NCBI GenBank assembly: GCA_030731845.1
Contig: JANQTF010000007.1
Coordinates: 19,344 to 65,965 of the forward strand
DNA: 46,622 nucleotides
Direction: 5' to 3'
Source: Bacteroidia bacterium
GTDB lineage: Bacteria > Bacteroidota > Bacteroidia > J057
The position numbers and the translations under genes are program-made. The notes under the pieces were generated by a model. The model was not told the origin of the DNA, did not search any database, and saw only the letters and a program-made list of their open reading frames with translations. This document shows, in pieces, positions 37,668 through 43,784 of the stretch; position 1 is the stretch's first letter; every line of letters begins with the position of its first letter.

Positions 37668-40271
37668 GTGGCGAAACAGAGCTCGAATCGTAGGAAACCA
37701 GCCCCAAAAAAGAAAGCCCCTGCTGGCCCCATTTCCTCCTTTCAAGGAATATGGAAATCCCTTGCAAGCACCACTGAGCACAAAGAGCAATGGTGGAAAT
37801 TCTTTTCCTGGAGTCTGGTGTTTCTTAGTCTCATCTCCCTCATTGCCTGTATTTCCTATTTTTTCACCGGGAAGATAGATCAGTCTGAGCTAGGCGTAGA
37901 AGCAGTAGAACCCGGGCAGGTGCGCAATTGGCTCGGGAAAACGGGGGCAGGCATCGCCAACCTCATTATTTTCCGGGGCTTTGGCCTGGTAGGCCTGCTC
38001 ATTCCAGCCTATGGCCTCCTTCTTGGCCTCCTCATGCTAGAAGACGATTATTACGCCTACGCAAAAAAACTCCTGAAGTACATCCTCTTCATCCTCTTTT
38101 TTGGCACCATCTTCATCTCTTTTGTTGAGCTCCTGATCGACCCTATGAGCGCCTTCTGGGGTGGTGGAGTTGGCGTATCGATCAACTATTGGCTCTTTGC
38201 CCGCATAGGCAAAGTAGGAGTTACCTTCCTGATCTTGTTCTTCATCGTCCTCTTTTTTGTGCTCAATTATAATGCTGAACTACGCGCCTCAGGATTGATC
38301 AACACCCTGAAGACCAAGATGGACAAAGGCTTGATTCCCAAAGGGATCGATACCAGCAAAGCCAAAAAAACGCTGGGAAAAACCTTTCAGAAAAAAGACC
38401 CCACAGCTCAGCCAACTACCACAACAGAAAAACCAGCGCCCAACACCCAACCCCTTCAAGAACCAGCATTCAGCGTATCGGGGGATGAATCATCTGTTCG
38501 ACCAGATCAACCATTAACCCTGGAGTTTCCCTCAACCGCCATCAAACCCAGGGAAGACAATCCAAAGAAACCCGGAGACGATCTGGAGTTTACCATCGTG
38601 ACGCCGCAAGACGAGCCCAAGCTTGTGATCTCTGATCCCATCAAGTTAGAGCAACTCGGCGAGGACAACGTTGGCATCGATGAGCAAGGCAACGCGATGA
38701 AAATTGTGCCTGACTCTGATCTCGAAATCGAAAATGCCGAGGATTATTTTGATGACGAGCTCTACGACCCTACCCAAGAGCTCTCCGATTATGAAAAACC
38801 CAGACTCGAGCTTCTCGAAGACCACGGCAGCGGGCGTGGTCGGGAGGTGGACCGGCAGGAGTTGGAGGACAACAAAAACAAAATCGTGAAGACCCTCAGC
38901 GACTACGGCATCTCGATCGAGTCCATCAAAGCCACCGTAGGTCCCACGGTTACCCTCTATGAAATCGTGCCATCGGCAGGGGTGAGAATCTCCAAGATTC
39001 GCAACCTCGAAGACGATATTGCGCTGAATCTCGCGGCGCTCGGCATTCGCATTATTGCCCCCATTCCCGGCAAAGGCACCATTGGGATTGAAGTCCCAAA
39101 CTCCAACCCCGAGATCGTATCACTGCGCGGTGTGTTTCAGACAGAAAAGTACATGACCACCAAGGCGGAGCTCCCCATCGCACTTGGCCGCACCATCTCC
39201 AACGAGGTATTTATCGCCGACCTCAACAAGATGCCTCACCTCCTGATCGCAGGGGCTACCGGGCAAGGAAAGTCCGTAGGCCTCAACACGGTCATCGCTT
39301 CGATTCTGTATAAAAAGCACCCTGCGGAGGTGAAATTTGTGCTTATTGACCCCAAAAAGGTGGAAATGAGCCTCTATGCCAGCCTGCGCAACCACTTTTT
39401 GGCCCAGCTGCCAGAGCAAGGCGATGAGCCCATCGTAACCGATGTGAGAGACGCCGTGAACGTGCTCAAGTCGCTGTGTGTGGAGATGGACAGGCGATAC
39501 GACCTGCTCAAAAAAGCCAGGGTAAGAAACCTCAAGGAGTACAACACCAAGTTTACTTCGCGCAAGCTCAATCCTCGCAAAGGACATGAATTTCTGCCCT
39601 ATATCGTGCTCATCATCGACGAGTTGGCAGATATGATGATGACCGCTGGCAAGGAAGTGGAAATGCCCATTGCCCGCCTTGCACAGCTCGCCCGCGCAGT
39701 GGGAATCCACCTCGTGGTGGCTACCCAGCGCCCTTCGGTAAATGTGATCACCGGGATCATCAAGGCCAACTTCCCCGCAAGGCTTTCCTACCGGGTTATT
39801 TCCAAAGTCGATTCACGCACCATTCTCGACGCTAATGGCGCCGATCAACTCGTAGGAAGGGGTGACTTGCTTTTGTCCACAGGCAATGAAATTATCAGGA
39901 TTCAGAATGCCTTCATCGACACGCCAGAGATTGAGCGAGTGGTTGACTTCATCTCCAAGCAGCGAGGATTTACTGAGCCATACCTGCTCCCAGAGATCCC
40001 CATCGAGGGTGGAGATGATTTAGATGATGAAGATGAAATTTTTGAGAAAGATAGTCGTTTTGAAGAGGCAGCCCGGTTGATTGTGAGGTTCCAGATAGGA
40101 TCTGCCTCCCTGATTCAACGGAAGATGAAGCTTGGATATAATCGCGCAGGTCGGATCATTGATCAGCTAGAACGAGCAGGAGTTGTAGGCGCCCATTCTG
40201 GAAGCAAAGCCCGTGATGTTCTTGTGACTGATGAAGCAGAGTTGGAACGGTATTTGTCCAATATGGATTGA
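37668..40271 (+). CDS. ftsK: DNA translocase FtsK/SpoIIIE
   Basis: An 867-residue FtsK. Four membrane helices (about 48-68, 95-122, 137-157, 183-201) anchor it at the septum. An acidic, Pro/Thr-rich linker (about 205-380) is shorter than in E. coli. The motor domain has Walker A GATGQGKS (529-536) and Walker B YIVLIIDELADMMM, with HLVVATQRPSVNVITGIIKANFPARLSYRV. The winged-helix gamma domain (about 800-867, FEEAARLIVRFQIGSASLIQRKMKLGYNRAGRIIDQLERAGVVG) reads orientation sequences on the chromosome. It pumps terminus DNA during division. The start is GTG at 37668; the next gene is a LolA-like carrier 29 bases on. Confidence 0.97.
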   Translation: MAKQSSNRRKPAPKKKAPAGPISSFQGIWKSLASTTEHKEQWWKFFSWSLVFLSLISLIACISYFFTGKIDQSELGVEAVEPGQVRNWLGKTGAGIANLIIFRGFGLVGLLIPAYGLLLGLLMLEDDYYAYAKKLLKYILFILFFGTIFISFVELLIDPMSAFWGGGVGVSINYWLFARIGKVGVTFLILFFIVLFFVLNYNAELRASGLINTLKTKMDKGLIPKGIDTSKAKKTLGKTFQKKDPTAQPTTTTEKPAPNTQPLQEPAFSVSGDESSVRPDQPLTLEFPSTAIKPREDNPKKPGDDLEFTIVTPQDEPKLVISDPIKLEQLGEDNVGIDEQGNAMKIVPDSDLEIENAEDYFDDELYDPTQELSDYEKPRLELLEDHGSGRGREVDRQELEDNKNKIVKTLSDYGISIESIKATVGPTVTLYEIVPSAGVRISKIRNLEDDIALNLAALGIRIIAPIPGKGTIGIEVPNSNPEIVSLRGVFQTEKYMTTKAELPIALGRTISNEVFIADLNKMPHLLIAGATGQGKSVGLNTVIASILYKKHPAEVKFVLIDPKKVEMSLYASLRNHFLAQLPEQGDEPIVTDVRDAVNVLKSLCVEMDRRYDLLKKARVRNLKEYNTKFTSRKLNPRKGHEFLPYIVLIIDELADMMMTAGKEVEMPIARLAQLARAVGIHLVVATQRPSVNVITGIIKANFPARLSYRVISKVDSRTILDANGADQLVGRGDLLLSTGNEIIRIQNAFIDTPEIERVVDFISKQRGFTEPYLLPEIPIEGGDDLDDEDEIFEKDSRFEEAARLIVRFQIGSASLIQRKMKLGYNRAGRIIDQLERAGVVGAHSGSKARDVLVTDEAELERYLSNMD

Positions 40272-40300: not shown

Positions 40301-40957
40301 ATGAAGAAAATTTGGAATCTCCCTGTGGTCTTCTTGATCGGGACCTTCTTGATCGGAGCAGGCTTTCGCACTGCCCCTGTAGAAGACGCGAATCAAATTC
40401 TGCGGGAGTCGAAAGCGAAATTAGAGTCGCTTCAAGATCTTTCGGCTAAGTTTAGCTACGAAATCAGCAATCCTGCCATGCGTGCGGTCCGCAAAGACGG
40501 CAACGTGATCTACAAAGGTGGCAAGTTTGTTGTGAAGCTCAATGACATGCAAGTGTATTGCGACGGGGAAACCCAATGGTTTTTTCTGCCCGAAGTGAAC
40601 GAAGTGACTGTACAAGACTACGATCCTGAAGATGAATTCTCTATCGAATACATTTTCAGAGTGTATCAGGCCGCCGCGAGAGCACGCTATGACGGCACCG
40701 ACCAAATTCACGGTGCTACTTGTCACAAGATTTTCCTCGCAGTCACTGACCCCGCCCTTGATTATCATCAGGCTCACGTCTGGATTAATACAACCACCAA
40801 ACTGCTCGAAAAAGTAGCCCTCGTGGACAAAAAACAGACCAAAACGACCTATGAGTTCTCCAATATTGAGGTAAACAAAGGGTTGAACAACGAAATATTC
40901 AAATTCAAATCCTCTGACCATCCAGGCGTCGATATCTATGACGAGCGGATGAATTAG
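40301..40957 (+). CDS. LolA-like outer-membrane lipoprotein carrier
   Basis: A 218-residue precursor with a signal peptide (MKKIWNLPVVFLIGTFLIGAGFRTA). The mature part is a LolA/LppX-type half-barrel: ILRESKAKLESLQDLSAKFSYEI, then a strand pair GNVIYKGGKFVVKLNDMQVYCDGETQWFFLPEVNEVTVQ. It matches the LolA fold that shields the acyl chains of lipoproteins while carrying them across the periplasm from the LolCDE exporter. It is 29 bases after ftsK, a neighbour I recall from other Bacteroidota. Residues before ATG 40301 are in frame but lack a signal sequence. A second LolA-like gene, broken by an amber codon, follows at 41221. Confidence 0.9.
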   Translation: MKKIWNLPVVFLIGTFLIGAGFRTAPVEDANQILRESKAKLESLQDLSAKFSYEISNPAMRAVRKDGNVIYKGGKFVVKLNDMQVYCDGETQWFFLPEVNEVTVQDYDPEDEFSIEYIFRVYQAAARARYDGTDQIHGATCHKIFLAVTDPALDYHQAHVWINTTTKLLEKVALVDKKQTKTTYEFSNIEVNKGLNNEIFKFKSSDHPGVDIYDERMN

Positions 40958-40972
40958 GAAGTTTGAATGAGC

Positions 40973-41009
40973 AAAAGCCCGCTATTCTATCGGAATAGCG
41001 GGCTTTTTT
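40973..41009 (+). terminator. terminator after the LolA-like gene
   Basis: A perfect 15-bp stem (40973-40987 with 40993-41007), 5-base loop, ending in a T-run of six. It closes the ftsK-LolA unit. Confidence 0.93.
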
Positions 41010-41173
41010 GTATCCTACCCCAGGATTTTCACCCCATTTCTAAGAAACTCAACCTACAAAGGAGATCCCAGTGCTTTGGCTATCAATCCCCTGGGCCATC
41101 TTCCTTTCCATGGATGAGGTAGTAAAGCATCTAGAATTTATGGGCACCAATTTGAGGGGAGAAACATTTCAGC

Positions 41174-41204
41174 TTGGCAGGCATTTTCAAGATTCGTAAC
41201 TTGA
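41174..41204 (+). promoter_or_regulatory. candidate promoter of the broken LolA-like gene
   Basis: TTG (41174-41176), a 20-base spacer and TAACTTGA (41197-41204); the -7 box resembles that of mdh. The start codon at 41221 lies 16 bases further on, so the leader would be very short. Confidence 0.45.
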
Positions 41205-41220
41205 CCAAAAACGAATCGCC

Positions 41221-41814
41221 ATGACTCGCCTCCTTGCCCGTTTTCTCCTGATTTTGATTGGATTGAGCTCCTAGTGTTTTGCCCAATTAGGGCCAACCAT
41301 TTGGGACGAAGCCAAAAAAGAATTCGCCAAACATGCTAGCTACAAGGTTGAATTCTCCTTCGACAGGTCTAGCCCCATGACCCGCAGCGCGCCTGCCAAA
41401 GGAAGTATGACCTATAGTGAAGGAAAATTCAAGCTTACTTTGCCAGACCTCAGCTGGTATTTCAATGGGGACACCCTGTGGGAGCAAGTGGATGGCAGAT
41501 ATAATGTCGAAATCCGACTCGGGCTTGATCCCAAAGCCCTCTCGCCCTCCGAAATGCTGGAAGTATTGAATCGGCAGCCAGCCTCCGTGAAGCATTATGG
41601 CATCATGGATCACAATGGAGAGATGTGCGATCGCCTCAAAATCGATTTTTCAGGAAAATCACTCCCCTATGAGACCGTATTTCTGTGGGTCAATACGAAG
41701 CGGCAAATCGTAAAAGTGCTGTTTATGGATCAGCATCAGGTGGCTACCACCATCGTGCTCCATAGCATCAAGCCGATCCCAACTCCCAATCCTTTGACTT
41801 TCTCCTTTCGATGA
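41221..41814 (+). pseudogene. LolA-like gene interrupted by an amber codon in its signal peptide
   Basis: From ATG 41221 the frame reads MTRLLARFLLILIGLSS, then TAG (41272-41274), then CFAQLGPTIWDEAKKEFAKH and on without a break to the stop at 41812-41814. The parts before and after the TAG join into a perfect signal peptide ending near CFAQ, so one codon is hit and the rest is intact. The downstream body is LolA-like (MTYSEGKFKLTLPDLSWYFNGDTLWEQV, LWVNTKRQIVKVLFMD) and parallels the intact copy at 40301. The first ATG after the stop (41377) would give a 145-residue protein without signal or first strands. It is a recent pseudogene, a sequencing error or a readthrough site; I cannot tell which. 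Confidence 0.85.
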
Positions 41815-41893: not shown

Positions 41894-42460
41894 GTGAAAA
41901 TCATCATTCTCTGCATTAGTCTCGCGTGTCTTGTGCTTTCTTGTGACCAACAAAGTCAAGGGAGCCGCCTATCCCCGCCCGCCACACTCACTGCCTTGAG
42001 TCATCGACTTGAGGCTGCGCCTCATCCACCCCTGAGCAAAGAGGCACTCGGAGCATGGTTGGCTACCTGTCAACTCGAAGGATTTAGCATCAAAGAAAAT
42101 AATACGTCGGAATTCATGATTAACGGTCAGCCGGTGACAGAAGGCAAACTCGTGGGCGTAAATAAAGACGGCTATGTGGCCATGGTGATCACCGATTATG
42201 CGGCAGATAGCAGTGCTTTTTTGAATCTATACAGGCGCTATCTCTGGGAAAGCCCGGCAGAACCAAGCCCTGGCTTGGACTGGGTAAAAGAGTATGGCGG
42301 TTTTGCGTGGATTTGGAAAGAGGACGGGAGCGATATTCAATATCTGGAAGCAGGAATCCTTGACAGGTTTCACCTGAGGGTGAGAAGCAACCTTCCTGAT
42401 TCTGATTCGTTGCTGCAAGAGGTAGCAGCTAGTCACAGGTGGCAAAGTATTCATCGATAA
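41894..42460 (+). CDS. small lipoprotein of unknown function
   Basis: The start is GTG 41894 (MKIIILCISLACLVLSC), with a lipobox LVLS-C17. The 188-residue protein has a mixed alpha/beta soluble part with tryptophan-rich stretches (YRRYLWESPAEPSPGLDWVKEYGGFAWIW). I do not recognise the family. It follows the broken LolA-like gene by 79 bases on the same strand and may share its transcript, which would be consistent with a lipoprotein-transport neighbourhood, but nothing in the sequence shows a joint role. Confidence 0.7.
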   Translation: MKIIILCISLACLVLSCDQQSQGSRLSPPATLTALSHRLEAAPHPPLSKEALGAWLATCQLEGFSIKENNTSEFMINGQPVTEGKLVGVNKDGYVAMVITDYAADSSAFLNLYRRYLWESPAEPSPGLDWVKEYGGFAWIWKEDGSDIQYLEAGILDRFHLRVRSNLPDSDSLLQEVAASHRWQSIHR

Positions 42461-42599: not shown

Positions 42600-43784
42600 A
42601 TGGCCTCATCAGTCCCTACCTCAGAACTTTCTTTGTCTGGCATGAATTTCCAACTGAGCGAAGAGCATCTCATGATTCGCGATATGGCTCGCGAATTTGC
42701 AGAAACTGAGCTGAAGCCAGGCGTTATTGACCGTGACGAGAAGCAGTATTTTCCCAAAGAACTCTTGCAGCGCATGGGAGAGCTTGGCTTTTTGGGGATG
42801 ATGGTGAGCGAAGAATATGGAGGAGGAGGGATGGATACTGTCGCGTATGTGCTCGCGATGGAAGAAATTTCCAAATGGGATGCCTCCGCTTCGGTGATCA
42901 TGTCAGTAAATAATTCTCTCGTTTGCTGGGGAGTAGAAAAATACGGAAATGAGGAACAGAAGAGAAAATACCTCCCAAAACTCTGCTCTGGAGAAACCAT
43001 CGGCGCTTTCTGCCTCTCTGAGCCAGAAGCAGGCAGCGATGCTACCCGCCAAAAAACGATAGCCGAAGATCGCGGAGATCACTATGTGCTCAACGGCACC
43101 AAAAACTGGATCACCAACGGTGGCATAGCCGGAGTGTATCTCGTGATGGCCCAGACTGATGTAGAAAAAGCCCACAAAGGCATCAATTGCCTCATCGTGG
43201 AGCGAAACTCACCTGGCTTCGAAATCGGCCCCAAAGAGCAGAAAATGGGGATCAGAGGTTCTGACACACACTCACTCAATTTCAACGACGTGATCGTGCC
43301 AAAAGAAAACCGGATCGGCGAAGACGGCTTCGGATTTAAATTTGCCATGAGCACCCTCAACGGTGGCCGCATCGGGATCGCATCGCAGGCCCTTGGCATT
43401 GCCTCAGGTGCACTTAACCTTGCACTTGAATACGCCAAAATCCGGAAGGCATTTGGCACCGAAATCATGAACCATCAAGCCATCCAGTTTAAATTGGCTG
43501 ATATGGCCACAGAAATAGAAGCCTCACGATGGCTCATCATGAAGGCTGCGAGGGAAAAAGACATGGGCATAGACTATGTGCAATCCGCTGCCATGGCTAA
43601 GCTCTACGCTTCCAAAACTGCGATGAAATGTGCCGACGAAGCCATACAGGTCCATGGCGGCAATGGTTACGTAAAAGAATATCACGTGGAGCGCTTTCTC
43701 CGCGATGCCAAGATCACGGAGATCTACGAAGGAACTTCTGAGATCCAGCGCATTGTGATTGCGAGAAGCATCATCAAGGGATAG
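42600..43784 (+). CDS. acyl-CoA dehydrogenase, short-chain/butyryl type
   Basis: A 394-residue FAD enzyme that oxidises acyl-CoA to enoyl-CoA. Family signposts are FCLSEPEAGSDATRQKT, the NGTKNWITNGG loop, KMGIRGSDTHSLNFNDVIVP, GGRIGIASQALGIA, QVHGGNGYVKEYHVERFLRDAKI and YEGTSEIQRIVIARSII. The catalytic base is E377 in YEGTSE, as in short- and medium-chain members. ATG 42600 and ATG 42642 (MNFQLSEEHLM) are both possible; the second matches the usual family start. It is a single gene followed by a terminator. Confidence 0.96.
   Translation: MASSVPTSELSLSGMNFQLSEEHLMIRDMAREFAETELKPGVIDRDEKQYFPKELLQRMGELGFLGMMVSEEYGGGGMDTVAYVLAMEEISKWDASASVIMSVNNSLVCWGVEKYGNEEQKRKYLPKLCSGETIGAFCLSEPEAGSDATRQKTIAEDRGDHYVLNGTKNWITNGGIAGVYLVMAQTDVEKAHKGINCLIVERNSPGFEIGPKEQKMGIRGSDTHSLNFNDVIVPKENRIGEDGFGFKFAMSTLNGGRIGIASQALGIASGALNLALEYAKIRKAFGTEIMNHQAIQFKLADMATEIEASRWLIMKAAREKDMGIDYVQSAAMAKLYASKTAMKCADEAIQVHGGNGYVKEYHVERFLRDAKITEIYEGTSEIQRIVIARSIIKG

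Follow-up and report, generated by a model that had tools for sequence, protein, structure and literature searches.

A LolA-like tandem paralogue with a single amber codon in its signal peptide, probably a recently lost second copy, in a Bacteroidia genome

The tandem LolA locus and the interrupted lolA2 frame

We examined a forward-strand locus in a 46,622-nucleotide stretch of a Bacteroidia genome, the whole of which is referred to here as the window, where two LolA-family genes, lolA1 and lolA2, stand in tandem behind a gene for a DNA translocase. The source genome is a 5.26 Mb assembly in 390 contigs, with 93.8% completeness and 2.2% contamination. The features of the locus are the following.

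37668-40271 (+): FtsK/SpoIIIE DNA translocase, a conserved upstream neighbour
40301-40957 (+): lolA1, an intact LolA with TAG as its stop (NF053572, 134 bits; cut-off 100)
40973-41009 (+): strong hairpin and T-run 3' of lolA1, likely an intrinsic terminator (-28.8 kcal/mol, z -5.95)
41221-41814 (+): lolA2, a LolA-like tandem paralogue, its frame broken once, at codon 18
41221-41271 (+): codons 1-17, which form the n-region and h-region of a type I signal peptide
41272-41274 (+): in-frame amber TAG in the signal peptide, immediately 5' of the CFA-Q cleavage site
41275-41814 (+): post-stop frame, with the cleavage site and the LolA-fold body, without the conserved C-terminal tail
41894-42460 (+): small putative lipoprotein, which adjoins LolA copies in several relatives
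42600-43784 (+): acyl-CoA dehydrogenase, a downstream neighbour conserved in some relatives

The upstream copy, lolA1, is intact and conserved beside FtsK. In lolA2, the TAG at 41272-41274 is the sole stop ahead of the terminal TGA, as the original prediction had described for the otherwise open frame 41221-41814. Codons 1-17 encode MTRLLARFLLILIGLSS, with a normal n-region and h-region, and the codons after the stop encode CFAQLGPTIWDEAKK, which lines up, with no gap, with the SPI cleavage site and the first mature residues of relatives, such as VSAQNPQEILEESKK in one of them (G007). This alignment confirms the CFAQ-type cleavage site that had been proposed to follow the stop. With its signal peptide interrupted at codon 18, lolA2 as it stands does not qualify for type I export, while the cleavage site itself is conserved. 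A lipoprotein (SPII) reading of LSS-TAG-C was ruled out, since the FAQ site matches the SPI sites of relatives without gaps. Entry by frameshift or from an alternative start was likewise rejected as a source of the signal peptide: stops soon close the alternative frames across 41221-41290, and no in-frame start occurs before 41377.

The post-stop frame of lolA2 has a codon score of 0.216. This exceeds every one of 265 wrong-frame segments and places the frame at the 47th percentile of 53 segments from real genes; the other two forward frames reach about -0.2. Of 20,000 first-order Markov sequences, 14 contained a run of 179 open codons. Because the codon score is typical of the genome and so long an open run is rare in Markov sequences, the lolA2 frame is a genuine coding sequence, present or recent.

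The hairpin and T-run behind lolA1 imply that lolA2 would need a promoter of its own. A sigma-70 scan for such a promoter found none, and the best match in a Bacteroidota-type scan reached 8/10, the level of random sequence, where the short consensus makes this weak evidence of promoter absence. The earlier suggestion that a plausible promoter remains is thus not borne out. A short frame at 41071-41202 (+), which begins with GTG and a hydrophobic stretch, sits in the gap that separates the terminator from lolA2; it is in lolA2's frame and is probably due to chance.

Fold, divergence and conservation in the family

The part of lolA2 after the stop has no match to Pfam LolA. Against the NCBIfam profile LolA1_Flavo (NF053572) lolA2 scores 46.2 bits (E 4e-12), which does not reach the cut-off of 100 bits. 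In a comparison of 25 family copies it has the lowest score, 49.6 bits, the next lowest being 72.9 bits. An AlphaFold2 model, which took the relatives as its alignment and is favoured by them in its fold, shows a helix at the N-terminus together with 11 strands (pLDDT 86.6, pTM 0.80). The top Foldseek matches of this model are the LolA of Bacteroides uniformis (4mxt, E 6e-12) and that of Porphyromonas gingivalis (8cgm, E 6e-10). The lolA2 product is therefore predicted to be LolA-like in fold, an incomplete beta-barrel closed by helices, and the LolA-like identity originally assigned to the read-through product agrees with these solved structures.

In a LolA tree in which its placement is unsure, lolA2 has the longest terminal branch, 3.47 changes per column where the median is 0.59, and orthology was judged from gene position. 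It retains 15 of 30 conserved positions; all other copies retain 61-100%. The C-terminal tail PGV.VYDER is absent, and a remnant of it in another frame was rejected after none was found in any of the three. By these sequence measures lolA2 is the most diverged LolA copy by far. The original prediction was correct about the stop, and it overlooked both the strong divergence and the missing tail.

The comparison covered 13 genomes of the source genome's family, among which the source is the sole species of its genus; no genus-level relative was present among the genomes searched. The order FtsK - LolA - LolA occurs in seven family relatives (G001, G003, G004, G005, G006, G007 and G009), followed 3' by the small lipoprotein in G005, G006 and G007 and by the acyl-CoA dehydrogenase in G003 and G009. 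In two further genomes (G002 and G010) FtsK is followed by just one LolA, without a second copy, and in three genomes of one genus (G008, G011 and G012) a single LolA lies elsewhere than behind FtsK. The second LolA copy is thus optional in the family, because some relatives have one LolA only. None of the relatives' 23 LolA1_Flavo matches contains an internal stop, in a comparison of the lolA2 codon with relatives at 15-28% identity. A check of this codon in closely related genomes had been recommended; among these more distant relatives, none has a stop there, and all their LolA copies are open. Set against the intact homologues that occupy this locus in relatives, lolA2 carries a disabling change.

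The small putative lipoprotein (41894-42460, +) has an invariant Cys17 and the motifs DYAADS and RFH, and has no Pfam or NCBIfam match. It adjoins LolA copies in G004, G005, G006 and G007. Its predicted fold combines strands and helices (pLDDT 80.5); the model has no PDB match at E<=0.001 and resembles mycobacterial TiME and MucB/RseB only weakly. A role as a LolB-like partner is conceivable. In G004 (L009 / L028, G004:C890) a second LolA pair lies away from FtsK, with the small lipoprotein between both LolA genes, which suggests that the lipoprotein travels with LolA.

Probable recent loss of a second copy and the alternatives

We consider it probable that lolA2, the second member of a tandem LolA pair, has been inactivated by a lone nonsense mutation in its signal peptide, either not long ago or in some of the population only. 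Started at 41221, translation would end after 17 residues. The next in-frame ATG, GTG or TTG lies only at 41377, and a product re-initiated there would be without the signal peptide and mature start and would stay cytoplasmic. LolA1 would supply the carrier function in place of lolA2, which would already have diverged strongly while still coding, as for a dispensable paralogue. What the data show directly is the stop, the open and coding-like frame, the gene order, the divergence and the failure to find a suppressor tRNA; the loss of function, its recency and the masking by LolA1 are what we infer.

The record of constraint on lolA2, read against distant relatives, is mixed: a long branch and lost conserved positions, yet normal codon use and no further stop. 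The post-stop frame offers 69 single changes to a stop, and none has been taken. Under neutral drift, the chance of no second stop is 0.32 at 0.05 substitutions per site and 0.10 at 0.1, so that neutral drift has probably stayed under about 0.13 substitutions per site, a bound that indels would tighten. It follows that lolA2 was still translated while most of the divergence built up, and that the stop either arose recently, is polymorphic or is not real. A fast-evolving protein under new constraint would have a long branch as well.

A stop that is not real is the chief alternative, which we judge rather unlikely, though well ahead of the others. The TAG would then be an assembly or consensus error, or the base of a minority strain, in a contig that is probably metagenome-derived, and the gene would be intact in the organism. 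The fragmentation, incompleteness and contamination of the assembly given above speak for it, as does the fact that the relatives retrieved by name are metagenome bins; moreover, one substitution accounts for everything, the remaining lolA2 frame being ordinary coding sequence. Against it, the 45 ABC-domain matches found in this genome are all free of internal stops, which argues that stops by error are uncommon, and the long branch and lost conserved positions are signs of relaxed constraint that are independent of the stop.

Useful levels of read-through at the stop, which would make export of the second LolA conditional, are very improbable in our estimate. The frame past the stop is indeed open and coding-like, with a predicted LolA fold. 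However, no tRNA with a CTA anticodon is among the tRNA genes recovered by targeted searches (30 matches), in a genome about 94% complete from which some expected tRNAs are missing, and of the eight matches to a pattern of CTA anticodon loop plus T-arm, three are tRNAs, namely Glu, Leu and Leu. A suppressor tRNA, for which a check had been advised, is thus rejected as far as the assembly reaches. RF1 is present above its cut-off, and TAG terminates 7 of the 22 well-supported genes of the window, including LolA1 and the acyl-CoA dehydrogenase; genome-wide recoding of TAG is therefore ruled out. The RNA 3' of the stop is no better folded than shuffles (z -0.33), so a stimulatory structure was rejected as well, and no relative has a stop at this position. 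A brief literature search on bacterial UAG read-through returned nothing specific to a case like lolA2. Since no CTA tRNA was found, RF1 is present, TAG is an ordinary stop, the RNA lacks such structure and relatives lack the stop, read-through of lolA2 beyond background is unsupported. Still more far-fetched is a signal-peptide amber kept as a switch, by which rare read-through would export the diverged second LolA under particular conditions.

The idea that lolA2 is translated from an internal start codon into a cytoplasmic protein without a signal peptide deserves hardly any credence: the ATG at 41377 does open a frame of 145 residues, but its product would lack the helix at the N-terminus and the first strand of the LolA fold and could not enter the periplasm, and no such form is seen in relatives.

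Of the three options originally offered for the stop, recent death of the gene fits best, a base error or strain variant is the main rival, and read-through is unsupported. The accompanying proposal that the intact upstream copy could mask the loss fits the data, given that LolA1 scores above the LolA1 cut-off and is conserved next to FtsK, and that the second copy is missing in some relatives.

Known LolA systems and implications

Bacteroidota carry several LolA proteins with unequal roles, and in F. johnsoniae LolA1 is the one that the lipoproteins of gliding and type IX secretion require (PMC11885536). By analogy with this role, masking of lolA2 loss by LolA1 is plausible. Compared with LolA1 of Bacteroidota (NF053572; Flavobacterium johnsoniae Fjoh_2111, PMC11885536), lolA2 matches most of the profile weakly, shares the fold of an N-terminal helix and 11 strands and the layout of a type I signal peptide, and stands in tandem with a true LolA1. 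Unlike it, lolA2 has a score below the cut-off, a stop in the signal peptide, no conserved C-terminal tail and changes at half of the conserved positions. With the LolA2 of flexirubin loci (NF053544), lolA2 shares the LolA fold and a C-terminus that is shorter, a trait described for F. johnsoniae LolA2 (PMC11885536); in contrast, it has no match to that profile, and its locus is one of FtsK and acyl-CoA dehydrogenase, not of pigment synthesis.

There is also a likeness to an ordinary bacterial pseudogene, a paralogue with a single nonsense change: lolA2 shares the early stop, the intact adjoining copy and some signs of relaxed constraint, and no distinguishing feature was found. Under the preferred reading of recent loss, the case is ordinary gene decay. 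Annotations should label lolA2 a probable pseudogene or flag the base as uncertain, and should not call it a recoded gene. For the family, the tandem LolA copies behind FtsK are unequally constrained, the second copy being diverged or absent in several lineages.
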